A stretch of 64,000 nucleotides of DNA from Mactra quadrangularis (taxonomy: Eukaryota; Mollusca; Bivalvia; Venerida; Mactridae), in the NCBI GenBank assembly GCA_025267735.1, contig CM046304.1, positions 3,658,001-3,722,000 on the forward strand. Direction: 5' to 3'. Shown piece by piece: positions 5,688-53,865 of the stretch. Within the stretch, counting starts at the first letter, position 1. Each line of letters starts with the position of its first letter. Made by a program: the position numbers and the translations under genes. The notes under the pieces were generated by a model, which saw only the letters and a program-made list of their open reading frames with translations, ran no database searches and was not told the origin of the DNA.

Positions 5688-5815
5688 CTATCGTCCATGT
5701 CTCATCATCAACTTCATCAATCTACTGTTTGGCGATGGCCTATTGTAAGTTTCTGCCTTGTTGCCTCGTTCTTTATCATCCAAAACACTGGTAATTAAAT
5801 CTACATTGGCTAAAC
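5688..5815 (-). CDS. Gene B coding exon 3 (peptide, amidation signal, stop)
   Basis: Acceptor ttataaacttacag ends at 5816. The exon completes Gly64 and encodes residues 65-105 with TAG at 5690-5688. It carries both family blocks and the GR-stop amidation end, the strongest single piece of evidence for homology with gene A. Confidence 0.74.
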
Positions 5816-8800
5816 CTGTAAGTTTATAAAATAATAAATGAAGAACATAATCGTCACACCGTACTACAAATAAAAAAAATTAAGTTTAAATGAATCTTAG
5901 AACAGCAACAGTAAAAACACTTAGTTTCCATACAGCCATACAGCATGAGATGTTTTTAAAGCTTTTATAACAAAAGGACACCATCAACAAATAAAAAAAC
6001 ATGAACTTAGGGGTAGTCAGGCTTAGAAAAAAGCCAATGACTACAATATTGCCACTAACGGGTTTGAAGACATAATTGAAGTATATGACAAAGGTCTGCA
6101 CCATGCACTAGTACAAGCCAGACAAATTGTTTCAAAACCGATAGAATTTAGAATGACATTTGTATCTTTATCGTGTTTTGTGAGTAAAAGTTAACAATTA
6201 AAGTAATAATATGATCAAAATATGAAAGACCTTGATTTAAATTCATATTTACCAGTTTATCTGCGTACTAACAAATAAACCCGTTGTTCGAGCGTATGTT
6301 TTCACATACAAAAAGTAACGCTATAAATTTTCTATATTGTTACAAATAAGCTGTTGTTTCAAAGGAAAAACTAATAGATTAACTCAATTTATACAATGAA
6401 AATAAATAACTAAGAAATTTAATTGTTTTTCCGTGTGCTTTTAATAATTTACTGAAATTGATAAGTAACTTACCTAAAATTCCAAATTTAAATTGGTTGT
6501 CTGAAAATGAATAAATATAAAAAACATTTAATAAGTTTAGATACTGTTTTAAGATGCTCATATAATTCATTAAAAATTTATAGAGCGTGGAGGCATTTCT
6601 ACATCGGTATTCTCGACTTATTCATCTATATACGTCTGAATGCCCAGACGTAAAACATTGAAAATAATTTGGCTACAAATTTGCTGAAGAAAAGAAGAGA
6701 AATTAATTTAACTTGCATAATTTTCTTGTTTTCTTGTGCATACTTTTACTATATAAATTGTCCTGAGATAATAAATAAAGTACATTGTAAGAAGAATGAA
6801 ATGACACAAGTAGTTTGATCATATTCAAGGCATGACTTAATGATTTCTTTGAAATAGTCGAGTGCAACGACTGCAAACAACATCTAGCTTAGGCCTTTCG
6901 TTTGGTGTTATTAACTTGTATTAAAATTTGCATGAGCCTTATGACCAGTGAGTATATATTCTTAATAGGTGCTCAAGTGTGTGTCATATCAATGTATTTT
7001 GTAAACACTATCATAAAACAACCTACAACATGTACTCACATATTTAATATTATGATAATATTTATCAAACATTTATTATAATCAAAGCACAAAAGGCGCT
7101 GAATTAATTTGGGTATCGGAATATCAGAAAGGTGATCACAATAACAAAATATTCATTCTAATTTCCTGTTTCTTGCTCATTGTTCTCGTTGTTGCGTCTG
7201 TTGTTTACAAAACATTTGTACACACGAGTTGATGACGTCATACTCAATTTCGTAGCAAAGTAAACAACATTTTTATGAAATGTTCGAGAACAGGCGTTAA
7301 TACGGTACAAACCTCCTTTCTTTCTTCTCCGTGGGTTGTTCTGTAGACTCTTCAGCGTGGTTTGATCACGTGACAAATTGTTATATAAACTAACCCATAG
7401 ACGAACGCCTTTTAATTGAAGAGTTCAATATTGACGTGCGTTTAATCAAAATTATTTCAATATATTACCAGTAATTTGCGGAAATGTTACAGAATTGCAC
7501 AATATTAGAAATCTTCGACCAATCGGGAACTATATTTTCTTCCCTGAGCAGGTTCGAAAATTAATGCGCCTGTTATTTGACAATTACTTTGGTTCCCTGT
7601 CCTATTATGGTTCGCAGGGGACCAGTCCATTTGACAATCTTCACGCAGTGATCTCCCCTGAATTTTTCGGCGTTTTTGTCCATGTAAAGGGAAGTAATCG
7701 CTACAAAAAAGCGGACTACTTTGGGCTTTTGCAATTAACAGCATTCGGGTCTAAAATTTCGCTACCATTATTTGTTTGGTCTGACGACCCAAACAAATGA
7801 AAAACCATGCGCTGTGTAAATATTAATATTTATCATGAAAGTTCTGTATTTCTATAAATAACTTACTAACCTATCGTACTTCGTTTGTGCCTTAGTAAAT
7901 TATTTTCGGATTCTTTTGGTCCCATCAAAACTAAAAATGAAAATATAAATAACAAAGCACCTATATTGAATTTATAACATGGGATATTACTATCAGAATA
8001 AGTTACCCTCAGATAAGAATTCTAATAACTGTATTTCCTTACAAATTCATTTATTTCTAAATATTAGTTATGGATTGTGTATATAAGCGTTAGAAAAGCA
8101 AAAGCCAGAACTTAGTTCAATACTGATATACATAATGTAATCATATTAAGTAAATTAAAAATACATGTTTCTGAGATTATCATTAGTATCTGTTTGAATA
8201 ATCAAGGTAAAATCAGACTTTTTGTCTTTTCTATCAAACCCACATGTAGTATGCTGTGTGGAGTACTAAGCATATCAATGTATTCCGTAGCAGTTTTCAA
8301 TATCATGTCTTTTTATATCTTATTTTAGCCGTCCTGTTAGCTCAGTTGGTAGCACGTAAGTCTACTGATCAAGGGGTCGTGGGTTCGATTCCCGGGCGGG
8401 GCATACTTACGTGGAGCTTGGTCATGAAATTATTTCTACGGCCATTCTCCCTCCTACCAATGATTTTTAATTACGTAGGGCAGTTGTCAGTCACTGACAA
8501 GTATGCACTTAGTAGTTGGTTTACAGCTAAATTTAAAGCTTTAGCTTTTCCAGGAACAGTGAGTAGGTTGACTGACCGCTATTATATGACATATACAATG
8601 TGTTGATACAGCGTTAACCCAAACAAAATCAAACAAACAAATATCTGATTTAGAAATTAAGGAATCTGACAACTCATCGAAAACAGCGACAAATAGAAAT
8701 TAAAGCGCTCATTAATTTGACATGTATTGAGTTTAAACTAGAATGGATTTTAAACATACCACATTTAACATTTGTTGGATGAACTTCGAAATCTTTCAAC

Positions 8801-8922
8801 TCTAATATATCTTGTGCCTCTGTTAGGTCAACCACTGATTCACTAATATGATTGGAAGATACCTTTATAATAACCATCGACATTACGATCACTAACATAT
8901 CTAATAATATTTTGTTTTCCAT
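5688..8922 (-). CDS. Gene B: CRF/DH44-like amidated peptide precursor, 105 aa, three coding exons, paralogue of gene A
   Basis: Minus-strand exons 8922-8760, 6500-6474 and 5815-5688 join in frame through phase-1 introns, as in gene A. Residues 1-23 form a signal peptide (MENKILLDMLVIVMSMVIIK, cleavage near VSS/N). A short spacer follows, then GLANVDLITSVL (64-75), aligning with GLENIDMMQRIL of gene A, and a C-terminal SRLMKLMMRH followed by G104-R105-stop, an amidation signal. Distances between the two conserved blocks differ by one residue between the genes. Unlike gene A there is no dibasic site before the peptide; QFK/F is the nearest basic residue, so processing may be monobasic or the gene may be degenerating. 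The middle exon is only 27 nt, half the length of its counterpart. No good AATAAA is close by; CATAAA sits at 5479-5474. Role inferred: secreted peptide hormone. Confidence 0.72.
6474..6500 (-). CDS. Gene B coding exon 2 (27-nt microexon)
   Basis: Minus strand: acceptor atttattcattttcag, then 27 nt, then a perfect donor G|GTAAGT. Phase 1 in and out with no stop; residues DNQFKFGIL. DNQF matches DEQF of gene A exon 2. The RLKR segment of gene A has no counterpart. Being so short, this exon is the least certain part of the model. Confidence 0.6.
   Translation of the reverse strand, partial: TTNLNLEF
7158..7800. other. Unexplained coding-like, GC-richer island inside gene B intron 1
   Basis: Overlapping open frames exist on both strands: 7495-7800 plus (about 100 codons, no good start) and 7376-7158 minus (72 codons, with RRRKKGG and two Cys). 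A TATATAAAC at 7382-7390 preceded by CACGTG looks like a promoter on the plus strand. No family was recognised in any frame. It may be a decayed gene or mobile-element fragment. Confidence 0.2.
8328..8640 (+). mobile_element. tRNA-derived SINE, family 1, in gene B intron 1
   Basis: Full copy with tRNA-like head (boxes A and B intact), the same body as the copy at 4877, and a tail with CAAA units. Flanks share an imperfect atatctNattt, a weak target duplication. It lies antisense to gene B, inside its first intron. Confidence 0.85.
8760..8922 (-). CDS. Gene B coding exon 1 (signal peptide)
   Basis: On the minus strand the acceptor tttttcttatcatttcag ends at 8937, then 14 bases of 5' UTR lead to the ATG at 8922. 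The exon encodes 54 residues plus one base and ends at 8760 with donor G|GTATGT. The same 'intron just before the ATG, phase-1 exit' layout is seen in gene A. A further noncoding exon should lie above 8937. Confidence 0.74.
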
Positions 8923-8936
8923 TCTTGAAATTTAGT

Positions 8937-10164
8937 CTGAAATGATAAGAAAAATTCAACTGCGTTACTAGTATTAAATAAAGAGCTTAAGATAATGTTT
9001 GCTATATATAATAACTTATTCTTTTTAGGCATAATATTTACAATTAAAAGCCAACGGAAACATAAAACGTAATGATAAAATGAAACTTTCAACATTTCTA
9101 TTGTACCATTTAATACTTTAGTGAAGATACATGCAAAAATACTAAAAAAAGGCTAAACGGAAACTTTGTTTTAATTTGGTAAACATCTATTCTTTTATTT
9201 ATGACGTTTTTTTCAACAAATTGTAGTCAAGACAAATTATTATGTACCAGTTTAAGAAAATAATTTACTAATGTACGAACAGCTTTTGTTTATTTAAACA
9301 AAGAACTAAGTTGTATATATAATCAATATCATAAAGATATAAAAATGAAAGAAAGTAAAAATACTTCAATATATAAACTTACATTTTATTATGTAATCAA
9401 CAAACAACCCACGATGATCTCTAACGTTGCTCGGCAAACAAACAACGATCTCTTTGCCTTTATATGTATCATCTGCAAATGAACTGAGCATTGCTGTCGT
9501 TGTACAAGTCATACAGACAGACAGGAAACAGGACAGCATGAAAGGAAATCATGGCCTGTCCCATTGTTAAAATAGGTAATGAAACACTTTATTAAGACTT
9601 CATTTTATATTTGGCTGCATTCATTAGAATTTCTTTGTTTTTGTATTCAACTAGCTGATGTAATTTTATTAATTAATTTGGGATAGTACACTTTTTCCTA
9701 TATTTGTCCATTCTCATTTTCATGTATGCTTGATCTAATTATGCTCCTATGTTGCATTCGTTATATTCATTGACCAACATTTTATTTCTACTTTTCAGAG
9801 TTTGAGTAAACCAAACCTGGTTTTCTTTCAAACCGCAGATAAATAGACTTTTTTAGCTCTAAAATGTGAGGATATACATGCCAATGATATAAAAAAAAAT
9901 GCATAATATTATATTATTGTATTAGAACAAAGGATTCTGTGTAGATAATTAAATTGGTATCAACTATTTTGACATTCTGAACAACTCGAACTTTCATGAA
10001 TGAATAATCTCGGAAGGATTCGTGGGGGGGGTCTTCCCTGGATTCTTGTGATTTTACTTCCTACGCGAGGCGAAGCACGTAACGGTTACACAAAATAGTC
10101 CTTGATGTATACAAACAGATCTTTGTCTAAACATGATAATTTGTTTTAAGTTGAACCAAATATT
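8937..10164. other. No coding feature seen; expected to hold gene B 5' noncoding exon
   Basis: Gene B has an acceptor at 8937 on the minus strand, so its transcription start must lie at higher coordinates. No clear TATA or initiator on the minus strand could be chosen. Confidence 0.4.
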
Positions 10165-18730: not shown

Positions 18731-18733
18731 CAG

Positions 18734-26110: not shown

Positions 26111-26164
26111 GCAATCGAGTGCTGATACCACAGTGGATAAACAATTATGTTTTCCCGACTTGTT

Positions 26165-29080: not shown

Positions 29081-29085
29081 ATTTG

Positions 29086-32030: not shown

Positions 32031-32109
32031 TGACATATTTGAAACAGTGGTAGGCATGATAGTGATCGTAAAAAGTACGCATCAACCGGCTTATTAAAGT
32101 TACTTGGTA

Positions 32110-32500
32110 CTCACCTCAATCTGATAAAATCCCGATCTAAAATTTGCCTTTCACCTACTCACTAATCATAGATCTGGCTGATTCGTTATGAGGGTCACGT
32201 CCAGGTGACTTTTTCTCATTTTAATATATTCATGACACACTTATTATATTTAGTAACTTGTTTACATCGTCTACGTCACGCTATTCAAAAGAGCCGTCCA
32301 AATACAGCCTGTAAACAACACCACCGTTAGAATAGCTCACAAACATAGGTTTAAAAATAGAAATTACGAAATCAAGATGCTATTAATAGTATTTCGTCTA
32401 GATGAAAGCTGCGCGTTGATTTGTCGACACAAAGGTTATCTTGATGTGACCCTCGGAGCGATTTTTATAGATCTTATACGACCGCGGTCTATATATTTGT
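32110..32500 (-). repeat. Dispersed 400-bp repeat, copy 1 of 4
   Basis: Minus strand relative to the copies at 39930, 42389 and 61635. Shared blocks include tgacgtagacgatgtaaaca, tttcatctagacgaaa and the GATCGGGTTTTAATCAGATT end. Confidence 0.75.
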
Positions 32501-33213: not shown

Positions 33214-33221
33214 CTCAATTG

Positions 33222-35291: not shown

Positions 35292-35296
35292 AACTA

Positions 35297-37885: not shown

Positions 37886-37909
37886 TTCATTTTTTTTTCA
37901 GGACAAAAG

Positions 37910-38186
37910 ATGGAAACTATTTACGGAGCCAAGATGTATTTTACTCAACGGGTATATTTATGTACATTTATCTTTTTATCATCTATATTGATGGTGTCAG
38001 GGGAAATAACTCCTGAATTTAAAACTGAAGCCGCTATGAACAATCGTTTTAAAACCCTGTGGGATTTGTATTTATTACCCCGTTTGGAACTTGATCTCAG
38101 TAACAAGGTTTCTGATTGGCTACAAGAAAACGGTGATCAGGACATTTCTTTATCGGACGATTTATCTCCGTATCAATTTGACAATG
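37910..38186 (+). CDS. Gene A coding exon 1 (signal peptide and spacer)
   Basis: A T-run acceptor ending in cag at 37899-37901 precedes only 8 bases of 5' UTR and the ATG at 37910, so at least one noncoding exon lies upstream. The exon gives 92 residues and one base; donor G|GTAAGA starts at 38187. The reading frame continues past the donor to 38269, but that extension is low-complexity FCCCYCCC and is read as intron. The intron directly before the ATG is a shared trait with gene B and with vertebrate CRF-family genes. Confidence 0.85.
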
Positions 38187-41100
38187 GTAAGACAAAACTT
38201 ATTTTCATCATATTTTGTTGTTGCTATTGTTGTTGTAATTTTGTCAAACATTTTATCCTATGTATCTGAAGCACTAAGACGACAGTTCAATCATCAACTA
38301 TGATACATTATCTATTTAAATAGTCGAAAACAGTTAAGTTAATATATCAAAGCCAATGGTCTTAATAGTAGAATGGTTTTTGTAAAGGGAATTTCCTTCT
38401 CAAATCGCTTTGAATAATCTAATCTAATATTTAAACAAATATACGATCGTTAAGGCAATGAGTGATGTTTCAAAATTTTTGTACTAAAGACGAAATATCA
38501 CGCATTGCCTAAACGATCGTATATTTGTTTACTTCAACACCGGTACTTTCAAATATCGTCAACATATGTCCGAGATTGTTCGCAGCGAATGGCCGAGGAG
38601 TTCCGAATTTATCGTTACGGAACGTTTTGGAACGTTTATGGTAATTGAACAGGCTACTGTATCAATAAAACACCGGTTGTAATTTTCGATTACTTTTATA
38701 CTGTGGAAAATTTAACTTAATTATATTAAAAACAAAGGTAGAATTCCCACTATGTCATTTTACACCCGTTGATATACAGTGCCACCCATAGTTACCTTTA
38801 CACTTTTGTAATTGTATGATTTGTATTTAAATTTTTAACAATACTTGATACTTGATAGATTAAAAACACATAATCTGATACATGTGCATGTATAACAATT
38901 ACATTTGTATGAGGCATCATTACTCTTCTTTCAAATGTTACAATATATTATAACTAAACCAATGCATAGATACATCTAAAATAAGATTTAAATGGGTTAA
39001 TGAAAAACCAGCTTTTTAAAAGTGTAAAGGTAATTTTGGATGGCACTGTATTTGTAAACCATGATAAATATTTTAAATTATTTTGTTTTCCCATCACGAC
39101 TTAATGTTTAATGTTACATTTTGCATGAAATATGTTTACAATACAGCATTCAAATATAAAATCATTTGATATGAAAAATTGTGAATTTTTCATTTCGTCC
39201 ATACACAAATGTATACAACATACATTGGATTCATAAACAAGTCTATATAAACATGAAATATGATATTTTACAAAAATTATTAAGCGTACGTGTTAACATT
39301 GTGCCACAAAATAAAATACACTGTTCTTGCGATCAGTAGCCACTTGGCTAGCTCAGATGGAAGCACACACGGCTACTGATCGATGGTTCGTGGGATATAA
39401 TTTTGTAGAGCTTGGCCATGAAATGATTTCTACGACTATTCTCCCTCCTACCACTGATTCTAATCATGTAGAACAGTTGTCAGTCACCGACGGAAGACTA
39501 TGTCTAGTAACAATTAAACAGGTAAATTCAGAGATTTAGCCTTTCCAGAAACGATGAGGTGGCTGACAGTTCGTGATCGCATTACCCAAAACTATAACAT
39601 TGAATTCCATCTTTACCATGATTCAGGGTAATTTGAACAAGTTATGTACGCAATATACATCTGCAAGTAATAGCAAAATTTGAGCTCGTAAGGCGTCTGC
39701 TCTAGATATCTGACACAGGTTCCAATTACAGAAGCATAAAAATGAACAATTTAATTCAGCTAACGTATCATTTTTTCTGCATGAATATTATAGTAAAAGC
39801 TGTTAGTGTCAATTATTGCGAAACAATTATTGTTGATCTGAAAACAGCAGTTTCCATAAACTTCCAGCAGGGCATGTTGTTATCAATGTGCCCTTTGTTT
39901 AGGTCTTCAGATTATCGTATAGGATCTTTTGACATCGTGCTGGGGGTCACGTCAAGATGACCTTTGAGTCGACCAACCAATGCGTAGCTTTCATCAAGAC
40001 GAAACACTATTAATAGCAATTATGATTTCCTAATTTTTATTTTTAGACCGAATTTTGTGAGCTAGTTTACAGTCGTGTTGTTCACCATCTTTGATTGGAC
40101 AGTTCTAAATGCAAATTACGTCACAAAGTCGATCTAAACAAGTCACTGAGCGCACTGATTTCGTTATGAATATTATTAAAACAAGGGCTAGCTGTACGTG
40201 ACTTTTAACATGAAGTACCCTGATTAAAATAAGTAATTGCGCGAGCGGACAATTCTAGACCGGGTTTTAATCCGATTATTATTATATAAGAACTGATTCA
40301 AACCATAGTTTGATATTTTCTCCGATAAAAACTGTAAGATCACTGACAAATGACATATATGTGCAATATATTGACTCTCCCTTTTTTCCTATGTTCGTGA
40401 CTGTTAATCAAAAACTAATTAAACCAAAGGATTTGAATTCTCCTTACAGACTAAACAACATTTATAGGTCAATTAAGTTAGTTATCATTTGTTAGATAAC
40501 TAGGTTTCTTCGGCAATATACAACTGAACATTATTCATGATGCGGGCGTGACCGAGTAGTTACGACTCGTGAGCAGTAACCATTAGGTAGCCAGCTCTAC
40601 GTTGGCTTGAGTCCCAACAAAACATAAACGGCTTTTTTAATAAGAAACTTTAATCTACTAGCTGAGTTCTGAGAGACTAGGACGTGGTCTTTGAAGTGTC
40701 TATTCCAAGTTGTAAGAACTAGTTACAAAATCGAGCTAAATAAATTTGTATTAAGCTGGGTTCCCACTGCCGATCAGATCAACTCGATCATCCCGATCAC
40801 CCAAATTCCCCGATCAGGCCCGACCAAGCTCGACTAAAGGCGTATACACGACTTCTTCTCGACCTCTTGTCGATCACACACGATTCCCACACGATTATTC
40901 ACGACTCCTTCACGACGTCAACCCGACCACCTTTCCGATTTCCGCTCGATCATCCCGACCTTTACACGATCCCTACACGATCTCAACTCGACCTACTGGA
41001 TCTCTGCTCGATCGGTGTCAGATCTTTCCCCGACCAGATCGTCATGGTCGTACTCGAGTCGTAGAAGGTCGTAAACAGTCGTTCTTCTACTTGCTCTTTC

Positions 41101-44100
41101 CTGGTTTGCTCGGCAGAAGAGTCAGTAGGGGGTATAGGCGACTCATTACTCTCTTCCTGGGTGGGTTCCACGATTTCAGGCTGAGGCGCAGCAACTGCAC
41201 ATTTACTCGCATTTGTACTGCCTATCGGCCTTTTGCCTTTTCTCGGCATCTTTAGTTTGTAGTAGAAATGGCTTGGCTGAAGATGTTTTAACAGATATTG
41301 GTTTGCTAAAGATGTTATATCTTCAGCGTCCAAACAACTTATGAGACACTGGTCAGCACGCTTTTCTTGCTTTAGTCACGTGAGCTCGTGTATGGTCGAA
41401 CAGTGATCGGGGTTTGATCGTGTGCGGTCGTGTGTGGTCGTGGAGTAGTCGGGTAGCAGTCTAGATAATCTGGACAAGAGATCGAACAGAGATCTACTTA
41501 ATCGGGATGCGATCGTATATTACTCGAGTAGAAGTCGAGATGATCGGGTACAGATCGGGTTAAAGATGCCAATCCGACCAAACAAGATCGCTACACGATT
41601 GTTTCTCGATCAACTCGATCTTCAACTCGATCAATACACGATCGCTTCCCGAGCTCTTCTCGACCGCTTGGCTACACGATCGCTACACGAATTTTTTTGA
41701 CATGTCAAAAAAAATCGGGTAGAAAGCCCGAGCGATGCCGACCAAGGTAGACCTCCCCGACCACTCCCGATCAATCATGCCGACCGACCCAGACCAGTAC
41801 CCGATCGCTTGATCGGGCTTGATCGAGTTGATCTGATCGGCAGTGGGAGCCCAGCTTAAAGTTCATTCTGGGGTTAATTCTGAAACAAATAGCTGTTTAT
41901 ATAGATGCTCGCTTATTGAAATGTAGAAACCTATCGATCCCAAAGCGTGTGTGCTACTATACTGGGTTACTGCTCTGATAAGGGGAGACCCAACTTTTTT
42001 GGAGAACAGATTTGTCTGTTGGGAATGAAAACATTACTTTACGAAGCCTTTTTTAAGTTCATTTTATTTGTGAGTGCATGATAAATGTGCTACTGTCGTA
42101 TTTACTTTCATCGTTTTAATCTTTATTTTAAGGAAGCTGACATGGTCGTTGCGTAACGAAACCTTATATCGTATTTAATATATTTTATAATAAGACGATT
42201 GATAGAAACAGAGTGCAAGTAGCGCAAAAACGTAGTTGAGACATTGTGGAAACGGAAAACGGCATTGTACAGTCGATATGTTGAAGTTTGTATGAAAACT
42301 GAAATTCTTTAAAACACTTTTACCAGTCGACCTTTTACTATGAACTATGTAGCTAAATATTATGTAGCTATATATTATATATAACGTCAATCTCCGTAAA
42401 CAGAGATCCTGTTCTACTCGCGTTGTCGTACTGGATCTCTACTTAGTCAATGCAAGGTCACGTCGAGATGAACTTTGTGTCGACCAATCAATGCGTAGCT
42501 TTCATCTAGACGAAAACACTATTAATCACATTTTGATTTCGTAATTTCTCTTTTTAGACCTAGGTTTGCCTGCAAATTTAACAGCGGTATTATTCACAGT
42601 CTGCGATTGGGTGGCTCATTTCAAATTGCGTGACGTAGACGATGTAAACAAGTTACGTATCATAACAATTTCGTCATGAATATTATGATGAGAAAAGGTC
42701 ACCTGAACGTGACCTTCGTTTGGAAAAGGCCAGATCTAAATTAGCGAGTATGCGAGCTGTAAAATTTTAGATCGGGTTTTAATCAGATTGATACAACGTA
42801 TACACAACGGAGCACAAGTTCCGTAATTTAAACGGGCATACGCCAGTTTTGCAGAGCAAGTCTCACCTAGATGTTTTGGCAAGTGACTGACCTTAGTCCT
42901 CATACGTGTATGGTTCCATAAAAGTCCTTATAGCGATTATGTCACGCATTGCAACTTGTTTAATAAAGGGAAATAACCACAGCAGTAAGTTCGAAGTCCT
43001 CAACTACATAATTGATGTTCATGCAATTATCTCCCTTTATAATGAAAACAATTTTTTAATAGATTTTTCCAAAATCTTTAAATATATATATATAGTTTTA
43101 TCAAAAGTATTAGCTCTTTTATTAAATACACAATAAGAAATGAATAAAAATCATACATTATTTAAATGCATATATTTATTTTTACAATAAACTCAAGTAT
43201 ATGAAATCGATAATTTCGCCATCATTGAAAATACATATTGGAGAGAAACCTTATATATGTGATTGTTTTTGGACCAAGCATCATGTCATGGTGCTTGGTA
43301 AAAAAATTAAATAATTAGGAATATACCTTCGCCAGTCCAATGATGACACACCTAGGCACAAACATGTCATAACTTGTGAATTACGTCACAACTAGTCAAT
43401 GACGTCACAATTTACCAGGCAACGGTGTTTTAACTAACCAGTCAATTACGTCATAGTTGCTCTTGAGCTAATCGTTCTTGCAACTGATCTTTCATGTTGA
43501 TTTAGAGCAGGTTTCAGAAGGCCCCTCAATGTAAAAGTTTGTGAAAGTTTGAAAAATGTCTGATTCTGTTGAAACAGGATTCTGTTTGCGTTTTTTTTAG
43601 TCTTGAGAAATGCACATTGTATATGCCATTATATAATTGTTTCATATAGAATGATATACACGTCAGTTTAATAGTGCTTGCTTCAAAATTTAATTTTCAG
43701 AAGAAATTTAGCACAACTACAAGAATTAATTCTATTTGACAAAAGAGCCTGCGAATTTATCAAGCAACCCTCGTATGTCCGGTTTGGAACAGTCAGGACA
43801 AAGAATGTTTGCTCACTGAACGTTTTCTTGTTTTTAACTGTTGATGGATTCGCCGCACGATGTGTGAGGTTAAAATATGGCCTGTATTTTAGAGAACGTT
43901 TAGCCTTGGAAGAAAATTAAATTCTGCTGGAATTGCAAAAACCTTTCAATCCATAGAAACAATAGCATTTACTAGATAAAAGATTTAGTGATAAAGAATG
44001 ATAAATGATAAACTTGTCTGCTATATATGATATACTTGTAAGATGCTTTATTTACATTAATCAAGATTATCTCATGCAAAATACAGCGACAGTTCACTAT

Positions 44101-47100
44101 TAAGACCATTAAGTGTCTATTCATATTCTTTCTTAAGGCACATTATTTTTTTATTGGAGGGAAGGGGGGGGGGTGGTTTAACGTCGTAGCTAAACATTGT
44201 ATAGGTCATATAACTGCGGACAGTAAACCTAATTACCATTAATGGAAAGTCTAAATCTCTGGATTTTGCTGTTAACAAGTAGCTTCCGCTTGTACATTTA
44301 GTAAGTCTTAATTTGAAGACTATCAAAATTGGTGGTTTTATTATCAAGATAGTCGTAAAAGTAAAGTAAAAAGTAAAGTAATTGCATTTTATAGTCTAAG
44401 TTTCATGCTTACGCACGTTCACCGACTTAACAGCTACCACCTCTGGTCACTGGGCTACTGGTATATATCTATCAATCTCCCTGGGGAGTCTTTTTACGCC
44501 GCTTATTAGTGCAGCCGACAAATTGGCGCAACGGAATTATACCACCCTCGCAGGTACCCATTTACACCTGGGTGGAGTGAAGCAATAGCAGGTAAATTTC
44601 TTGCTCAAGGAAATTAGCAGTGCCCCTAGTGGGATTTGAACCCAGGACCTCTCGATCCCTAAACGCGCGTCCTACCACTGGACTACTGCTCCTACTAAAA
44701 CATGTACATTTTCTTCTCAAATTAAGCAATTATGCTACAAATCGACAAAATATACATATTTCTTGATTCAAACATTGGTTTGGCATGTGCCGATTAAATG
44801 ACAAGATTGTAACAAAACTCTTTGCCAAAGGGTAGTGAGATAACTTGGCATGCCTCCCTCCCCCTTCCAAAGAGCCCCACCCCACACAGTGCGTATTATC
44901 AAAATAAGCTAACAGAAGTCCTCCTGCTGACCAGAACAGCCAATAAATATGCCTTCAAACTTTTAAGGGATATACAGGCAAATGACTGTGCAAAAAGTAT
45001 AGAACCAAGTTTAGTCTTTAAAACAGTATTAAGAACGTAAGAAATCACTTAATAATAACATTTGTCACTTAAAACATTCAACTGAACGAATTAAAATATG
45101 TGACATACACATTGTTGAAAACGAATATAGGATACCGAGGGAATCACCAAGCTATTTACAGATTTGTTATATGTCGTACTTGCTGAAATTAAACATTTTC
45201 ATTGGTCGCTTCTTGTTTTTTCGACTTTCTTCAGCGGTTAGAATATCTTTTTAAAAGAATTATACTAATGTTGCACAATAACAAGCTCTAGTATCTTATC
45301 ATCAGTAAATGCATATTTTAACACTAATCTATTTTTAGCTACCCTGACCCACGTGGGTCTACTTAGGAAACACCCCAAATATTACGAGAAAATAAAGAAA
45401 TGTTTGCCAAGTAATATGACAGAGTGTCTGTTGCGTTCACAGTTATAAAAAAATATAATTCCAAAATCAGGAAATATGAAGTTGAACTGCTGCCTTGAAA
45501 TTCCTTTAACTCTCTTACCCTACTGCATAACATAGGTTTCAATTGTAAATTAATTTAAAATATTGAACAATTTAAAGTAGAGACTGCGAAACATATTGAA
45601 GCAATGAATGACATTAACAGTTTAAATTTGAAAGGATTTTGCATTAAAATAAAGCATGCATCTAAGAACATGGAAATATCTGTCTACAAAACATAACTAA
45701 AGTTTCATCACATTTCAACTTCCAAGATCATAGAACTCTCGTTAATATTCTTGTGATTAATGTACCAGTATGGTTTCACTCGTTGCATCTGCTTAAGACG
45801 ACAAGAATTGATTTGATAAAAGAGACTGCATTATTAGACAGTTCAGTCAGTTAAAGGTTTATTACAACAGTGTATTGCCGAGGACGCGCTTTTGTGCAAT
45901 TTGCTCATGCAAAATCGAAATGGTGCTTGTGAAGCCATGTTAGTGCAGAAAGTCGGACATCATTGTCTTCTTAGATTCCAAAGCGATATTGGTATAAGCG
46001 AGGTTTTTGTCATAACATTAGATAACTTGTTTGCATTAAATAAAAAGTTATGAATTCATAGCAACATTGTACCTAAAGTTTGACCCCGATCTGACCTTTC
46101 ACATTTGTATTTCATAATTACCTACACATATCCCGACGAAAATCAGAACTATGCCTATTCTACACGGTGTAATAGACACTCACTGTACGCTTTAATATAT
46201 TTAAAAATTAATGGCCAGAAATGGATAGACATTTTATTCATTAGATTAGTTTTCTGCTTAAGCGCATCATCATAATACATAATATACATTACATGAATTA
46301 CAAAACATTTATTTCTAATATTTACATTCGAGCTTTGACGATATACACCGATATCGGTATCGAGCATTAATACTACATCCGTATTCAATGTGATTAATAT
46401 TCTTGTATAAAGGTCCGATAGGGTTTTTCAAACTTTAGGCACTATACATTCATAATTTGATATCATCGAAGACTTATTTCGATATTCCTAACTTAAGCTT
46501 GTAGAGTTTTCTAAAGACATAATTTTGCTGAAGAACGTTTGGAGGGAACTACATGTATGCATATACAGTGCCCTCCAAAAGTTCTTGGACAAAATCTTGG
46601 GTTTTAAGATAAACTGATTCATCTTTATTCATGAATATAAGGAAGAAAGACAATCTCTCATACAGAGTTGTCGATCCTTACAGTGATCTATATCTCTGTA
46701 AACGTCTCGGGTTTTACAAGATTCTTGTAAAATAGTAATATAGTTTAGATTTTGTATCGAAGACGTAATTCGTCGTTTATATATATAATCATAGAGTTTT
46801 ACGTGAAAAAGAATTTTATCATAGTCGAAATCCAATTTTTAAAGAGTAATATTTACAAGCACTATTTTCTTGTGAAACGTCTTCCTATTCTGAGTAATTC
46901 GGCTTATTTACTCATCCGCTAAAATGTCAACAATAGATGATATTGCTAAAAGTTATGACAAAATATCGTGCTTAGGGCCTGTCAATGACAAGCCTTTGAA
47001 CATCGACAAGACAAGAAATGTGATATGTAGGTTAGTTTGCCTGTTGTGTTTGTAAAAAATTCAAAAATTGTCACATGATCGTTTTAAACGATCACGTGTT

Positions 47101-50100
47101 TGGGACTACTTACGAGACGTTAACAGAGATAGAGATCACTGTAAGGATCGACAACTCTGTATGAGAGATTGGAAGAAAGAGTCATCTGAGCAAATTCTGA
47201 AGTCAGCATTAATTAGTTTATTAACATATGATTTAAACAATGTTACATGAAAAAGGTCTAACGATAGTTAATTTACTTGTATCATGCATGATCATTTTTT
47301 CTCAAAATTTCATCTGTCCAAAAACTTTTGGAGGGCACTGTATTGTTTTCTCCTTAGCTGATCATGCTGTCTTGTTTATTACTCAAATGTCCTAAGAGAC
47401 TGGTGCCGTAAAAAGTGTGGGAGTGTTACAAGAATATAGGTCTTACAAAAACATTACGTATTTATTTGAATCATGATATAGTCGATAAGGGACAACCTGG
47501 TTCTCGAAGAATAATCGGAAATTCACTAAGATATAATTTTTCCACTAAACAACGTTCTCTTCGTTAATTGTGTTCTGTAAACATTAATGTTTGCAACAAA
47601 TACCTTGGTCATTTCATATAAGCGACGAGTATAAACGAACTTGGTACGATTTAAAATGGAAAATGATTATGTTTCCGTTTAATAATATTTAAAGAACGAA
47701 TAACATCATACATGTATATTAACAAAATAGCCGTCCACGGACAGCGCGCTCAACTATTCGGGGTGTATGAGTTAAGAAAATGTGATAATTGATAATCAAG
47801 TCAAAAATCATGATAGAGTTTAATGCAACTTTGTGTTGGACCAATGGTATTATGGTAACCCCGTAGACATGTATAACGTTTCAAGTGAATCCCTTCAGTA
47901 GTTTCAAAGATAAAATGTTCCACCAAAAACTTAACCAATATTTTTTTAAGTATAAAAGGAGCATAATCTAGACAAAATTCATGCTAGAGTTATGCAACTT
48001 GGAATTTGACCCCCAATGGTAACCCCGTAGACATGTGTGAAGTTTCAAATGAATCCCTGTAGTAGTTTCAAAGATATAGAAATGTTGCACCTAAAACATA
48101 AACCAAAAGTTGTTAAGCCGACGACACCGCCGATGCCGCCGCCGTCGCCCAACTTAATAGAATAGCCCCACTATTCGTCAAATAGTCGAGCTAAAAAGTG
48201 TAGCAAACATATAAGAAACACGACAATAAAATCACAGACCTTTCACACAGATTAAGAACAAAAACGGACACTTGAGTTTTACAATCACGCCACGACTGCT
48301 ACAATTAAATGGCTAATTAATTATAATTTGACGCCTCGATAATAAATTATTGCGAAGTATTACCAAACAGTACTTTATTTAACGACGTAAAGGCAATGCA
48401 AAAGTCAATAAGTATTATTAATCACAAAGACTCGGTTCAATAACAGTTCATAGTTTTATTAATTATTGCAAAAACAGTTTGAATTAACAGTTGTCATAGA
48501 CAAATATAGATTTTTATATAGGAGTGTTCATTCAATATATCGCAATTTTCATCCAATTGAAATTAAGGATTACGCATCAGAGTTCCCTTTCTGGTTTTAC
48601 ATAAAAATGTCTTGTTATTAAGTTAAATATATCCAAAGTGAGAAACAAATAATTATTTAGTCACAATTTTGCGCCAACTAACCCTGTGACAAAACGCTGG
48701 AAGCGCGAAAAACTTTAATATTTGTCAACATTTATGATGCTATTCGGTATAAATTAATTTAATGTGATAGAAATTTAATTATGTAGACAAAACGACGACA
48801 AAAAGCTCAAAGTAACATCAATGTGAGACTTTGATAAATAAATGAAACATGATATATGTGAAGTAAGACGTCATACTGTTTTTAATCTCTAAAAATGACC
48901 CCTGATTCCAAGCTAAAAGAATATGTCCTTTTAAAGTTCTTTTACAGTGCAATAAACTGTTCTGATATTATTTCCATGTCCAGTTTTAAAACAGGAGATG
49001 ATAGAATGGAACCATGTTGATCTATGTATAGAATCCACTATCAGGATGGACATAAAAAATACACTCTGTACTTTCTCTCAATTAATTATCTAAATGGAAA
49101 AAGTACAGAGAACAATAAGGGACCTAAATCAGTTATTTCCCCTTGTATACTTTTCAAATAGGTAGGCCCAATAAGTTGGATTAATCGGAATTTACCCTTA
49201 CTTTTCAATGTCAATTTGCCAAAATTAATCTTAAATAAAAATTTTGTAAATCATTTAATTTGTTTGAAATTCAAACTAAGTCTTTTTAGGGTAAATAACT
49301 ATTTAAATTTCACTACTTCTGTTAATATCTTCATTAACAAGAAATATATTAGATAAAATATTTTGTTATCCTTACATAGGACTTCAATGTTAAAATCCGA
49401 GGATTCTAACTGTAAGGACCTTCTTATCAATTGGATTGCTTCAGATTTTATCAGGGAAAGATAACTGACTAATGACCTAATTAATGTCATAATTTACGAT
49501 TGAAAGCTTCATTTCAAAGATACATGTACTTTTCACTTGTAAGGTGCAGCTAGTGCTGAATTCTATCAATTAAGATAAAAACACAACGTTTCCAAAACAA
49601 CTGTGAACATTTTTGTGCATGGTGTTTCGCTTGTATTTTATCCATGAAGGGATAGTAATTATAACCACTGTTCTATTTTTACTCTTTGTTATAAGACGTT
49701 TCGGCCATAGGCCTTCTTCAGTTAATAAATTTTGCTACCGCAAGTTTACATCTTTTAATTATGCTGCACATTTACGAACACTGATATATTAATTTAATAA
49801 AAGATGTAAACTTGCGGTAGCAAAATTTATTAACTGAAGAAGGCCTATGGCCGAAACGTCTTATAATAAAGAGTAAAAATAGAACATGGTTTTTCGATAA
49901 AACATGACTACGAGTATTTCCTTTAGTGACAATGTATTAATGAAATTGAAAGTCACTTAAAGTACCACTGTCTGTTCCAAGGTGGAAGCCCTAAAGTTCA
50001 TGTTTTCATTATTTGTTTGTGGTATCTTTTTATAACTAAAGTTTAAAAGTTTTGTAACATCTCCTTCTTTGCTTTTTGTCCGTGTGGGAGTTCTGTGTCT

Positions 50101-52352
50101 TTTACCGTTACTGATGGATATGCCAGAAGTTTTCAAATTCCGTCCTTAAATTCAGGAAACAGAGTGTACATAGCCAAAAAGCATATTCAGAATTCTAAAT
50201 TAAGGTTTATCTGACAAAATAAATTGATTTTGTTTTATTTTTTTTCAGAAGAAGATGAACAATTTCAAAAGGTACCTACACAATCCAGATTGAAAAGAAT
50301 AGGTAATTATTTTATACTCTTCCATTGCAATTTGCCATACCTTACAGCCAAACAAGTATCACCTGCTAATTGGCTTGAAAATTAAAGCATCGCATTGAGT
50401 TATTAATGTTTTCAAATACTCAAAGCAACTATCATTTCAGAATAGGTAGCACAAATTTACGAGAATTCATTATTACAAAAATGAAAGTATAAAAGATAAA
50501 GTAAAACTCATTAGTAACATGGTATTACGGCGTACTGTACATTAAACAAAAACGTCATATCCATATTAGACACAAGGGTATATGACGATTTACGCATTTA
50601 ACCCCTACGTCATAATACTATTTGACACGAGGATATATGACGATTTACACATTTACCCCCTGCGTCATATCACTATTTGACACGAGGATATATGACGATT
50701 TACACATTTACCCACTACGTCATAATACTATTTGACAGGAGGATATATGGTGATTTACACATTAAACCAAAACGTCATAATACTATTTGGCACGAGGATG
50801 TATGACGATTTACACATTAAACAAAAACGTCAGATCACTATTTGACACGAGGATATATGACGTTTTACGCATTAAACCAATACGTCATAATACTATTTGA
50901 CACGAGGGTATATGACGATTTTCGCATTAAACCAATACGTCATAATACTATTTGACAAGAGGATATATGGCGTTTGCACATTAAACTAATATTTTTATAG
51001 TGTGTTTATGTTAACAAATCTATCCCGGTAGAAACATTTAGATGAATTGGTCCCTTTTGTTACTTTAACCATATTTCTTACATTACTTTGGACAGTTTCC
51101 CTTTAAATATAAGGAGTTTTAACACAATTACGAACACTAATATGTTAATTTAAATGCCAAACGTAACCAAAATAGTAAGCGAGTAGCTATAAAAATAGGA
51201 CATGGAATGTCAAGCTAACTATGTATTTATTTCCTCATTTCTAAAAATCAACAGATCATCAGATCTCCCCAAATCTTTCCCCAGTTAACAGAAACAAAAC
51301 CCGTTTAGAGATCTATGTACGTATAAAAGTGACATGTAGACCCAATGATAATGTATGATCTATGTCGCAATAATGTTCAGTTGAAACAATAACAGTGTTA
51401 CCCTGTCATTTCTCGACGCTAATCTCGTAAAATGTCGCATTAGGGTCATACTATTCCAACACAAATGTTCACGGGAGACATCTAACTTAATCTCGTGGCG
51501 AAATGTTGTGACATTAGGCCAGGGAAATGTGATAGCAAATATCAATTTCAACTTATCACTTTTATTCATGCAATAAGATCAACTTCAGGGCGGTAGTCTT
51601 GTTAGTATCTTTTATCTTGTCAATATTTGTGTCAATATATGACTTGATAAAAGTCTGGTATGGGAGAGGAGTGCCAAATTGTGTAATGTCTGAAGAATGT
51701 GAGAACTTTAAGATATGACCGCTTCGTGAGGATACGTTTGGCTTGACATAGCTGGAAATATAGCGAGATCACCTATAAAAAAACGTCTATACAAATGAGT
51801 GGTAAAATATCTGACTTCTTTTTTCAAAGTTGTATTATAACGCTGTAGCAACATATTGTATTTGACTATTTGTCATATCATGGCTGTCAGTCAACCTACT
51901 CACCGTACCAGGAAAGGCTAAAAATATAAATTAAGCTGTTAACCAGTTCCTAGGCGCATGCTTCCGTCAGGCGCTGACAACTGCCCTACATTATTTAAAA
52001 TGAGTTGTAGGAGGGAGAATGTCCGTAGAATTTATTTATTCTATTATAAGAACAAAGCATAAATTTGAATTGTCAGACTCATAATGTAACACTCTGAACT
52101 GAAATGAACGTAAAACTCAGTAAACGCACTCCAGGGACAGGCGGTGTAAATCTACAATCAAGGGGAATCACTCTACCTTGAATTTAACAAAATGTCTCTC
52201 TAATTTCAGGACTCGCTGGATTAGAAAATATTGATATGATGCAACGTATTCTACATCAACAAAGTAGCGGTAGAGCAAGATTACCAATGTCAGTAAGCAA
52301 CATGAATCACAACAGATTACAACAACTAATGCTAAACAATGGAAGGAAATAA
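37910..52352 (+). CDS. Gene A: CRF/DH44-like amidated neuropeptide precursor, 157 aa, three coding exons
   Basis: Exons 37910-38186, 50249-50302 and 52210-52352 join in one frame through two phase-1 introns, each with GT donor and pyrimidine-AG acceptor. Residues 1-31 are a signal peptide (hydrophobic VYLCTFIFLSSILMV, cleavage near SG/EI); Met9 is an alternative start. Residues 32-105 are an acidic spacer. RLKR at 106-109 is a convertase site. Residues 110-154 are the likely mature peptide; G155-R156-K157-stop is an amidation signal. The core GLENIDMMQRIL (114-125) and the end NRLQQLMLNN-amide resemble CRF/DH44 peptides (LDL-type N-terminal helix, NRxLM-type C-terminus, peptide at the extreme C-terminus). 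Known CRF peptides are amidated ligands of class B receptors; activity here is inference. Alternatives are molluscan egg-laying hormone or another class B ligand. Gene B is a paralogue. Gene reality is well supported by splice frames; family assignment about 0.6. Confidence 0.82.
38434..38530. repeat. Hairpin of about 36-bp arms in gene A intron 1
   Basis: caaatatacgatcgttaagg and its counterpart ending in acgatcgtatatttg pair with a few mismatches around a 27-base loop. The right arm leads into the dispersed repeat at 38490. Confidence 0.8.
38490..38640 (+). repeat. Dispersed repeat, copy 2 of 2
   Basis: Partner of the copy at 10165, overlapping the right arm of the hairpin at 38434. Likely the end of a DNA transposon whose other end is not seen. 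Confidence 0.65.
39327..39590 (+). mobile_element. SINE family 1, diverged copy in gene A intron 1
   Basis: Box A region (GGCTAGCTCAGATGGAAGCA) is recognisable; box B has been lost by a short deletion. The body segments catgaaatgatttctacg, gaacagttgtcagtcac and gatttagcctttcc are present. Confidence 0.8.
39930..40290 (+). repeat. Dispersed 400-bp repeat, copy 2 of 4
   Basis: Blocks ggggtcacgtcaagatgacc, gcgtagctttcatcaagacg and accgggttttaatccgatta are in order; the middle is more diverged. In gene A intron 1. Confidence 0.75.
40542..40750 (+). mobile_element. tRNA-derived SINE, family 2
   Basis: Head resembles a class II (Leu/Ser-type) tRNA: GGGCGTGACCGAGTAGTTA as box A with a diverged box B, then a body ending in ttgtaagaactagttacaaa and tcgagctaaataaa. 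A second copy starts at 63768. The TTAA-flanked element at 40751 sits exactly at its end. Confidence 0.72.
40751..41859 (+). mobile_element. TTAA-flanked DNA transposon derivative with 40-48 bp inverted ends
   Basis: TTAAGCTGGGTTCCCACTGC opens the element and GCAGTGGGAGCCCAGCTTAA closes it; the inverted match continues for about 40 bp with one mismatch. TTAA at both edges fits piggyBac- or Kolobok-type insertion. Both subterminal regions (about 40770-41075 and 41385-41850) are packed with CGATC, TCGTG and CGACC motifs, as in subterminal transposase-binding arrays. One minus-strand ORF lies inside. It sits in gene A intron 1. Confidence 0.83.
40983..41333 (-). CDS. ORF carried by the TTAA-flanked element, unknown function
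   Basis: 116 codons from the ATG at 41333; an internal Met30 starts MPRKGKRPIGSTNASK, a basic, possibly nuclear N-terminus, followed by an acidic, Pro/Glu/Ser-rich stretch. The last about 30 residues run into the element's subterminal motif array, so the true product may be spliced (a possible donor Q|GTAGAA lies after TRKEQ). No transposase motif is visible. It may be a first exon of an element-encoded or captured gene. Confidence 0.4.
   Translation of the reverse strand: MDAEDITSLANQYLLKHLQPSHFYYKLKMPRKGKRPIGSTNASKCAVAAPQPEIVEPTQEESNESPIPPTDSSAEQTRKEQVEERLFTTFYDSSTTMTIWSGKDLTPIEQRSSRSS
42389..42795 (+). repeat. Dispersed 400-bp repeat, copy 3 of 4
   Basis: Begins near aatctccgtaaacagagatc and ends gatcgggttttaatcagatt. 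It carries internal inverted ggtcacgtc and gaacgtgacc segments. In gene A intron 1. Confidence 0.78.
43701..43920 (+). CDS. Exon-like ORF of unknown function in gene A intron 1
   Basis: Acceptor aaaatttaattttcag ends at 43700; about 73 codons follow in the phase-2 frame (RNLAQLQELILFDKRACEFI ... RERLALEEN) to the TAA at 43918-43920. The stretch is GC-richer than its surroundings. No family was recognised and no upstream partner exon was found. In phase 1 after gene A exon 1 it would stop after three codons. Confidence 0.25.
44172..44300 (-). mobile_element. SINE family 1, partial copy in gene A intron 1
   Basis: Only the 3' part remains: ggtttaacgtcgtagc, attgtataggtcatat and taaatctctggatttt on the plus strand. 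It follows a G-run. Confidence 0.7.
44353..44695 (-). mobile_element. tRNA-derived SINE, family 3, in gene A intron 1
   Basis: Read on the minus strand, the head has TAGTCCAGTGGTAGGACGCG (box A) and GGGTTCAAATCCC (box B). A conserved body follows with acctgcgagggtgg and ctccccagggagattgat, then a tail of TTTAC/TTTTAC units (44353-44382). Only one copy is seen in the window. Confidence 0.75.
44940..45512 (+). repeat. Dispersed 550-bp repeat, copy 2, in gene A intron 1
   Basis: Same order of blocks as the copy at 11085 (acaggcaaatgactg, gagggaatcaccaagctatt, ggaaacaccccaaatattac). The GACCCACGTGGGTC palindrome is kept. Confidence 0.8.
46564..47342 (+). mobile_element. Tc1/mariner-like element, non-autonomous
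   Basis: TA-flanked inverted ends TACAGTGCCCTCCAAAAGTT and its counterpart ending in CTTTTGGAGGGCACTGTA are typical Tc1 ends. The 779-bp body has no transposase. It holds a second inverted pair around 46645-46715 and 47100-47175, each reading HCKDRQLCMRD on opposite strands. Located in gene A intron 1. A decayed copy of its right end lies at 59231-59333. Confidence 0.82.
46923..47030 (+). CDS. Exon-like ORF inside the Tc1-like element
   Basis: ATG at 46923-46925 opens 35 codons (MSTIDDIAKSYDKISC...) ending at a donor-like TGTAG|GTTAGT near 47029. Not recognised. It could be a captured host exon or chance; there is no transposase similarity. Confidence 0.2.
47805..48197 (+). repeat. Dispersed repeat with internal duplication, ending tagtcgagctaaaa
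   Basis: Two units (47805-47940, 47965-48105) each have gttatgcaactt, ggtaaccccgtagacatgt and tttcaaagata. They are followed by a CG-rich gccgatgccgccgccgtcgc and a closing attcgtcaaatagtcgagc. The ending recurs at 3745-3806. Likely a LINE or SINE 3' piece of bivalve type. In gene A intron 1. Confidence 0.65.
49112..49487 (+). mobile_element. 370-bp MITE family, copy 1 of 3
   Basis: Inverted ends AAGGGACCTAAATCAGTTATTTCC and GGAAAGATAACTGACTAATG. The interior has acccttacttttcaatgtca, atcttcattaacaagaaat and ttggattgcttcagatttta. In gene A intron 1. Confidence 0.78.
49669..49886. repeat. Near-perfect 89-bp inverted repeat with hammerhead-like cores, gene A intron 1
   Basis: Arms 49669-49757 and 49798-49886 are complementary with one mismatch, around a 40-base centre. 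Each arm contains CTGAAGA, a GGCC/GGCC stem and GAAACGTC in the order of a hammerhead ribozyme. The few changes between arms mean it is young or maintained. Probably derived from a Penelope-like or retrozyme repeat; inference. Confidence 0.9.
49826..49870 (+). ncRNA. Hammerhead-ribozyme-like motif (right arm)
   Basis: Stem I TTTATTAA pairs with TTATAATAAA (49861-49870) leaving a 2-nt bulge. Core CTGAAGA is 49834-49840, stem II GGCC-TAT-GGCC is 49842-49852, then GAAAC (49853-49857) and the cleavage-type triplet GTC (49858-49860). Departures from canon: one extra A (49841) between the core and stem II, and no room for a closed stem III, so activity would need dimer pairing through ACGT. The left arm carries the same motif on the minus strand, with one stem I mismatch. 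Confidence 0.4.
50249..50302 (+). CDS. Gene A coding exon 2 (54 nt, carries the convertase site)
   Basis: A strong polypyrimidine tract and cag end at 50248; donor G|GTAATT follows 50302. The 54-nt exon keeps phase 1 on both sides and encodes EEDEQFQKVPTQSRLKRI plus one base. RLKR is a classic prohormone convertase site placed just before the mature peptide. The segment DEQFQK matches DNQFKF in the middle exon of gene B. Confidence 0.82.
50538..50990 (+). repeat. 55-bp minisatellite in gene A intron 2, about 8 copies
   Basis: Unit near TATGACGATTTACACATT-AAACCAAAACGTCATAATACTATTTGACACGAGGA, most copies within a few changes of each other. Each unit carries ACGTCATA and TATGACG, CRE-like half sites in opposite orientation. 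Confidence 0.88.
51836..52028 (-). mobile_element. SINE family 1, 5'-truncated copy in gene A intron 2
   Basis: Minus-strand 3' half with ataacgctgtagcaacatat, gtcagtcaacctactcacc and ctgacaactgccctac on the plus strand. It ends about 180 bases before the gene A last exon. Confidence 0.78.
52210..52352 (+). CDS. Gene A coding exon 3 (mature peptide, amidation signal, stop)
   Basis: Acceptor ctaatttcag ends at 52209. The exon completes Gly111 and encodes residues 112-157 with TAA at 52350-52352. It holds most of the mature peptide and the GRK amidation and trimming signal. An internal GRAR (131-134) could be a monobasic secondary cleavage site. A long A/T-rich 3' UTR follows with AATAAA signals about 1 kb downstream. 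Confidence 0.84.
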
Positions 52353-53305: not shown

Positions 53306-53311
53306 AATAAA
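53306..53311 (+). terminator. Candidate polyadenylation signal of gene A (proximal)
   Basis: AATAAA followed by a TGTGTCTG element of the GU-rich type. It could give a shorter 3' UTR than the signal at 53472. Confidence 0.4.
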
Positions 53312-53471
53312 ATGTGTCTGCCTTTTCTCAATGTAATTGACATTTCCTCATGATGGGAAGAAACTGTGAAACTGTCATAAAACATGATAAAGACTTGTAA
53401 CATTAAAAGACCGAATCTGACTTCATTTGTATTTTAACAAACCATTTGTAACATCATTGTAATACCGCAGA

Positions 53472-53477
53472 AATAAA
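53472..53477 (+). terminator. Candidate polyadenylation signal of gene A (distal)
   Basis: Canonical AATAAA, followed within 25 bases by a T-rich tract. A proximal AATAAA lies at 53306-53311 inside a possible shorter 3' UTR. Confidence 0.5.
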
Positions 53478-53865
53478 CAGAAATAAGTTCTATAAATTGT
53501 TTTATTTTAATAATTATTTCGTATGATTTTCTATATGACAATCGACTGGTAATACAGGTAGGTCACAATAAGGGTCTATAGCCACGTGATATACAACAAC
53601 AACTTTTAAGGTACGATATTTGTTTTTGCCGATTTTGTCTTTCTGGACAAGTGATTAAATGACATAAAATATCCTCGAAAAATTACGACTAAAATTCCGT
53701 GTAAACCAGTGAGTTCTGATCGTCAGCTCTAACATCTTTGCACAAAGGTTATATGGGCCAGTTAACTAGAATATGGGCAAGATAAATTGTGCACAGGGTA
53801 CAGTGAAAGATCACGTGATTATACACCTTGAAAATGGCCATAGTGGAAGGTTTTGCTATTGCTTC

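Follow-up and report, generated by a model that had tools for sequence, protein, structure and literature searches.

QSamide/PXXXamide peptides are known from the oyster, the cuttlefish and insects. Several oyster genes of this type encode a main amidated mature peptide: there are two QSamide genes and, on the same chromosome, a QSamide3/PXXXamide gene with complex differential splicing (PMC8398477). The beetle relative of these peptides, iPTH, likewise has a signal peptide, a Lys-Arg (KR) site and an amidated mature peptide (PMC7224569) and activates PTH-type receptors (PMC7224569, PMC8557429). Characteristic of iPTH/PXXXamide are Ser-Asp (SD) at mature positions 7-8 and a mildly conserved Pro at -4 from the amide (PMC7224569). 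Lophotrochozoan PTH-type class B receptors are described as still lacking a proven ligand (PMC8557429), and further literature covers the same peptides (PMC7200681, PMC6425005, PMC3890597, PMC9552230, PMC10148640). Bivalve ELH precursors are described as carrying two ELH-like peptides each (PMC4200219, PMC5996578). Here, we analyse a 64,000-nucleotide stretch of the clam Mactra quadrangularis (the window; C12:3658001-3722000 in a 979-Mb, 447-contig genome) holding two peptide genes, A and B, which an initial annotation had taken for a duplicated pair of CRF/DH44-like genes.

Our best reading is that A, B and the related C genes are an unnamed bivalve family of predicted amidated, probably two-helix peptide hormones that are likely ligands of G-protein-coupled receptors (GPCRs). 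We consider it probable that this one-locus cluster of five complete and two truncated genes makes secreted, KR-cut, amidated peptides, 45 residues long from A and 52 from B, which likely act as GPCR hormones. The open frames, the splice signals, the full-length relatives in Mactra antiquata, the single locus and the constraint on the mature peptide were all observed directly. Coordinates are window positions; values of zero or below lie to the left of the window, and position x corresponds to contig position 3658000 + x on C12.

Structure and relatives of genes A and B

Gene A lies on the plus strand and consists of three exons joined in phase 1, which together encode a precursor of 157 residues. 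A predicted acceptor AG (37900..37901), with TTTTTTTTCAG directly upstream, stands 8 bases before the ATG. Exon 1 (37910..38186) encodes a hydrophobic, signal-like start (METIYGAK...FLSSILMVSG) and the propeptide and leaves in phase 1. Exon 2 (50249..50302; 54 nucleotides, phase 1-1) contains the predicted KR cleavage site (50293..50298, codons AAA AGA), and exon 3 (52210..52352) encodes the greater part of the predicted mature peptide of 45 residues, the Gly amide donor, Arg-Lys and the stop. The precursor accordingly reads SRLKR, then IGLAGLENIDMMQRILHQQSSGRARLPMSVSNMNHNRLQQLMLNN, then G-R-K-stop.

Gene B (B1) lies on the minus strand and has four exons with every join in phase 1. Its predicted acceptor AG (8937..8938) stands 14 bases before the ATG, and exon 1 (8760..8922), which encodes a hydrophobic signal-like start and a spacer, leaves in phase 1. 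Exon 2 (7871..7930, 60 nucleotides, phase 1-1), which emerged from a splice scan after having been overlooked, carries the predicted cleavage site (7881..7886, codons AAA CGA); this is the only KR of B, and a model without exon 2 has none. Exon 3 (6474..6500) is a 27-nucleotide microexon that codes for DNQFKFGIL, a segment close to the N-terminus of the predicted mature peptide, and exon 4 (5688..5815) provides the rest of that 52-residue peptide, the Gly amide donor, Arg and the stop. In the precursor of 125 residues, LLRHKR precedes the predicted mature peptide, which begins at S72 and reads STIDNQFKFGILGLANVDLITSVLDDKERGNKAETYNRPSPNSRLMKLMMRH, followed by G-R-stop. The initial annotation had the acceptors, the phase-1 first exons and the terminal G-R-K-stop (A) and G-R-stop (B) right. 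Its single tiny phase-1 middle exon per gene holds for A; in B the 27-nucleotide exon exists, accompanied by the 60-nucleotide one, and the B mature peptide, which had been placed at residue 64 of a 105-residue precursor, moves to S72.

A and B are arranged head to head with their ATGs 28,988 bases apart, and their mature peptides are homologous, as had been proposed: their local alignment score of 62 compares with a shuffle mean of 21.7 (standard deviation 4.2), and none of 5000 shuffles reaches it. The motif N-I/V-D-M/L ... R-L-x-x-L-M-x-x-x-G that they have in common defines the new family itself. Hydrophobic N-terminal segment, dibasic site and C-terminal Gly-basic amidation signal can all be read in A, B1, B2, B3 and C1, and the internal exons of the family are all symmetrical (phase 1-1). 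Each of these five genes also has a TTTCAG acceptor before the ATG (8 bases away in A, 14 in B1, 17-18 in B2, B3 and C1), which makes an intron in the 5' untranslated region likely in all of them.

Protein searches covered about 5.8 billion proteins. Gene A recovered a single protein at E<=1 (37 candidates), P0001, and a B model still without the 27-nucleotide exon recovered a single one at E<=10 (4 candidates), P0002; this incomplete model was also used in some of the Pfam and PDB comparisons below. A profile of five family sequences gave three proteins at E<=10 (1788 candidates), and P0001-P0003 are all the relatives found. P0001 is M. antiquata ACF0H5_015241 (158 residues; 82% to A over 100%, E=6.7e-82) and P0002 is M. 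antiquata ACF0H5_015242 (125 residues; 64% to incomplete B over 100%, E=2.9e-38; 69-70% to C1). Their locus tags are consecutive and both are named only 'hypothetical protein'. When P0001 and P0002 were compared with the window by tblastn, every predicted exon was matched, in order. For A, residues 1-92 of P0001 match exon 1 at 82% with the same end (E=2.2e-46 in a genome search with P0001), residues 88-111 match exon 2 (E=1e-6), and exon 3 is matched by P0001 at 83% over the exon and by P0003 at 57% over 42 residues. For B, residues 1-54 of P0002 match exon 1 at 69% and exon 4 is matched at 65%; the exon 2 counterpart is present in P0002 (tblastn E=0.001) as well as in B2, B3 and C1, and the microexon corresponds to NSQFKFGIL (tblastn only E=0.39). 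Since P0002 contains the residues of both small exons, the B model lacking the 27-nucleotide exon was rejected. P0001 and P0002 both have a KR site. The C-terminal signals are GRK in A, GKRRK in P0001, GRRKK in P0003 and only GR-stop in B1-B3, C1 and P0002.

P0003 (146 residues; E=1.1e-6 with the five-sequence profile) lies on a 955-base contig whose source is marked 'lgn'; that a contig of this length contains the entire frame suggests an origin from spliced mRNA. It is A-like, with LW--Y-LPRLEL-LS-K in the propeptide followed by KRLGISGLENFDLMTKTLDQSRLPMSVSNMSFNKLRSLMRQAGRRKK, and keeps KR, GLEN-x-D, RLPMSVSNM, L-x-x-LM and GRR. In a phylogenetic tree, P0003 forms a long branch, and its placement is not firm. 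P0002 groups with C1 (96/99) and not with B1-B3, C1 and P0002 being a supported pair within B/C. One B/C-type protein was thus found in M. antiquata, compared with both B and C genes in M. quadrangularis; judging from these sequences, B may have been lost in M. antiquata, or may be unannotated or divergent there.

Outside the mature peptide, residues 50-66 of the A propeptide (LWDLYLLPRLELDLSNK, exon 1) are unchanged in P0001 and largely kept in P0003 (LWEHYILPRLELELSRK). This stretch is not flanked by dibasic sites, and it is absent from B and C, which share DFEVHP(T/S)NVKC with a single cysteine instead.

A tandem array with an unchanging B peptide

We examined the window plus 100 kb on each side (264 kb) with a profile of four mature peptides. 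Seven final exons stand out at E<1e-16, followed by five microexons at E 0.014-0.13 and a single frame at E=2.3. Besides A, the seven represent three B genes, a single complete C gene and two C copies truncated at the 5' end, and they lie within 105 kb of one chromosome: C1 (-52159 to -49841, plus strand), B3 (-39675 to -42540, minus), C2 (-32112 to -31982, plus), B2 (-15224 to -17680, minus), C3 (-5498 to -5037, plus), B1 (8922 to 5688, minus) and A (37910 to 52352, plus). A, B1, B2, B3 and C1 are complete with open frames, and C2 and C3 are broken. The five copies C1 to C3 in this order lie left of the window, at about C12:3605841-3658000. The head-to-head arrangement described for the locus, about 29 kb apart, stands, although A and B1 are only 2 of 7 copies.

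Most of the array is a repeat of about 24 kb made of convergent C/B pairs, with B starts spaced 24.1 and 24.5 kb and C final exons 17.9 and 26.9 kb apart. In a self-comparison (blocks >=600 bases), the unit is present three times at 82-99% identity per block, and we judge the units too divergent to be haplotypes of one locus. The repeated unit begins within intron 2 of C1 (matches start at -50609, -32738 and -5791), which is why exons 1 and 2 are missing from C2 and C3. The GT donor of the C2 microexon is gone, as is the amide-donor Gly of C3, while DNQFKFGILG can still be read at C1 and C3. Exon 4 differs between C2 and C3 by 3 replacement and 2 silent changes, in line with relaxed constraint but too few for proof. 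A unit comprising the 3' end of a C gene and a whole B gene was apparently copied twice, which would have left two C remnants without exons 1-2 and three B genes whose predicted peptides are identical, presumably raising the dose.

Genome-wide protein queries, for which match counts are lower bounds, found no family member outside this locus: C1 gave at least 14 matches at E<=10, every one of them within C12:3605841-3710346 (all 14 candidates were scored), P0001 gave 4 (the three A exons and one chance match), and P0003 matched two A exons only (2 of 2 candidates scored). The chance match, at position 4929230 of another contig (C1:4929230; E=0.55), was discarded, having neither the GL-x-N-x-D motif nor an amidation signal.

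The B copies allow constraint to be measured. Exons 3 and 4 (155 bases) have 1 difference each in the pairs B1-B2 and B1-B3 and 2 in B2-B3, all of them silent, so that the exon 4 amino acids are identical, and the microexon differs at 0 of 27 bases in each pair. In introns 1 and 3, the same pairs have 133/1362, 209/1460 and 205/1382 differences (10-15%; intron 2 aligns poorly, with many gaps, and the figures come from the other two), a contrast with Fisher p-values of 4.7e-6, 3.5e-9 and 2.0e-8. The rest of the precursor is less conserved than the mature peptide: exon 1 differs at 6-12 of 163 bases, and exons 1 and 2 have 4, 7.5 and 7 replacement changes, compared with 0 in exons 3 and 4. An identical mature peptide despite such intron divergence argues for function, and to judge from these comparisons it is the B peptide, not the leader, that stays fixed.

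These data bear on two other explanations. The gene models could be spurious or decayed, built from chance splice sites, and the two truncated and damaged C copies would fit this; given two full-length relatives with matching exon borders and the constraint in the B copies, we regard it as extremely improbable. On sequence grounds, genes A and B are very likely real and functional. Alternatively, the peptides could be secreted and amidated but used outside the nervous system, for example in defence, gametes or mucus, where lineage-limited distribution and tandem amplification are common. The family has an apparently lineage-limited distribution and is tandemly amplified. However, a mature peptide that is invariant among the B copies while the leader changes fits a receptor ligand better than a defence peptide that diversifies, and the mature peptides have no cysteines and a net charge of only about +2 (our own count), which makes this use unlikely.

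The locus contains several repeats. A dispersed repeat whose end resembles a tRNA (GGGAATCGAACCC...), probably a short interspersed nuclear element, occupies about 8340-8590 inside B intron 1, with similar reading frames within 31811-32110 and 44117-44395; ARAGORN called no tRNA on it. A minisatellite at 50539-50991 (55-bp unit x 8.3) lies in A intron 2 and another at 55073-55548 (32-bp unit x 14.9, 96% matches) further right, both units containing GTCATAATACTAT. At 60374-61144 (plus strand), a 256-residue open frame, for which the best Pfam match (FYVE_2, E=0.073) stays below cut-off, is presumably the C-terminal end of the reverse transcriptase of a long interspersed nuclear element.

Comparison with known hormone families

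CRF peptides form one helix and show S-L/I-D-L close to the N-terminus and N-R-x-L-M/I towards the C-terminus. Membership of A and B in the CRF/DH44/ELH family, as initially proposed, is suggested by a long predicted amidated peptide at the precursor end, after KR, and by a superficially similar spacing of N-x-D-(L/M) near its start and R-L-x-x-L-M near its end. The family versions, N-I-D-M / N-V-D-L and N-R-L-Q-Q-L-M / N-S-R-L-M-K-L-M, are of similar type but out of register with the CRF motif, and the A and B peptides have a central Pro/Gly linker instead of a single helix. Where bivalve ELH precursors are described with two ELH-like peptides (PMC4200219, PMC5996578), the A and B genes carry one.

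Sequence comparisons did not reveal a parent family. Pfam gave nothing above cut-off for A, incomplete B, P0001-P0003 or the mature peptides, including no CRF match, and comparison with the PDB gave no match or chance level. Some weak hits were of the wrong kind, below cut-off and dismissed as spurious: C2c1_RuvC-like (E=0.057), Glyco_transf_7C (0.038 and 0.22), DUF1505 (0.24), DPH3 (E=0.1) and ETV6 fusions (0.56-0.77). Single-sequence alignments with 20 hormones yielded z-values of -1.4 to 2.5 and singled out no family (orexin-B 2.5, CRF 2.4 with M. antiquata B only, PDF 2.3, DH41 2.2, UCN2 2.1). A seven-sequence family profile reached at most 3.9 bits against 18 hormones. Some CRF-type sequences did beat most of their own shuffles, at 2.6-3.9 bits, with 1 (UCN2), 4 (DH41) and 8 (CRF) of 200 shuffles scoring as well; the counts were 7 for PTHrP and PACAP, 13 for orexin-B, 40 for TIP39, 57 for PDF, 58 for UCN3, 76 for glucagon, 83 for PTH, 84 for UCN1 and 97 for NPY, and cerebrin and DH31 gave no score. 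The nearest expected relatives behave like shuffles, at 60 (CDCH), 103 (ELH) and 114 (DH44). Profile-profile comparison by hhalign against the CRF, DH44, ELH and PTH families likewise gave no significant match, with probabilities of 0.3-1.2% for the sets combining CRF and ELH types, 0.6% for CRF without ELH, 0.3% for ELH and 0.1-0.2% each for PTH and for the glucagon and PDF types. Scans of the genome with the PF00473 hidden Markov model and with Aplysia ELH gave no match, but the controls of the former were equally silent and both scans carry equally little weight. With no significant similarity in the Pfam, PDB or profile comparisons, the CRF reading is not supported, and we consider it very unlikely.

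The rival that we take most seriously is that A, B and C are divergent clam members of the QSamide/PXXXamide (iPTH) group and ligands of PTHR-like class B receptors. The group shares with the locus a multigene, partly single-chromosome organisation (PMC8398477) and the same precursor layout (PMC7224569), and P0003 ends R-Q-A-G-R-R-K-K, so that its QA-amide is one residue off QS-amide. The signatures given in the published descriptions, however, are absent. SD does not occupy positions 7-8 in A (IGLAGLENID), B (STIDNQFKF), C1 (SAIDNQFKF) or P0003 (LGISGLENFD), Pro does not occupy -4 in the C-termini MLNN, MMRH, MIKN and MRQA, and the predicted amides are NN in A, RH in B and KN in C1, with QA in P0003. 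A further trait of PXXXamide/iPTH, a Gly followed by two basic residues at the C-terminus, occurs in A, P0001 and P0003, and B1-B3, C1 and P0002 end in GR-stop. We regard the tie as possible but doubtful. Any resemblance to the parathyroid hormone type is one of presumed working, a helix-linker-helix shape predicted at low confidence.

Proposed action and significance

The reading that we prefer remains an unnamed hormone family. Its precursors would lose their signal peptide, and a prohormone convertase would cut at KR and free a single C-terminal peptide whose terminal Gly is used for amidation. Secretion would be from neurons or endocrine cells, and the freed peptide would act as a hormone on a GPCR, likely of class B, the latter step being the least certain. 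An AlphaFold model of P0001 places helices of the mature part at 112-129, 136-139 and 143-154. The predicted shape, a helix, a Pro/Gly linker and a second helix with R-L-x-x-L-M and the amide, suggests a two-domain ligand of class B type, in which the N-terminal helix would activate the receptor and the C-terminal helix would bind its outer domain. On this modelled shape alone, a class B type of action is possible. The genome has at least 128 matches to 7tm_2 receptors (each exon counted separately; 150 of the 253 candidates were scored), none with a ligand assignment. Many such matches are on contigs C17 and C14, clustered with the entire domain in a single frame on the former and split over exons on the latter, which makes these contigs a place to look for receptors.

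Several points weigh against this reading. Among the proteins searched, relatives extend no further than M. quadrangularis, M. antiquata and one 955-base contig, and those of M. antiquata are apparently gene predictions themselves. The evidence for the cluster genes is DNA sequence and comparisons, and the hydrophobic starts were judged signal-like by reading of the sequence. The structure model is weak, of low confidence (3-row alignment, mean predicted local distance difference test score (pLDDT) 55). Finally, gene conversion limited to exons 3 and 4 may be part of the reason why the B peptides are identical; since exon 1 and the introns have diverged among the copies, such conversion would have to be local.

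The 27-nucleotide exon is symmetrical (phase 1-1), so that skipping it would give an in-frame 43-residue peptide. One could go further and combine an undescribed bivalve hormone family with a microexon that rewrites the receptor-activating N-terminus, an array that raises dose, an orphan class B ligand and C remnants serving as alternative 3' exons of C1. The same gene would then make a 52-residue hormone upon inclusion (S-T-I-D-N-Q-F-K-F-G-I-L-G-L-A-N-V-D...) and a 43-residue one upon skipping (S-T-I-G-L-A-N-V-D...). The truncated C copies do lie downstream of C1 on the same strand. That all of these hold together seems unlikely.

Six 7-residue pieces of the peptides did not occur in a literature text search, and none of the papers that a search on Mactra neuropeptides and genomes yielded concerns these genes by title. 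The locus also shows that intron-rich peptide genes can go unnamed in the annotation of a bivalve. Its array illustrates how ligand genes can multiply in nature while their product stays the same, and the family that it defines, with exact predicted mature ends, offers directly testable candidate ligands for the lophotrochozoan PTH-type class B receptors.

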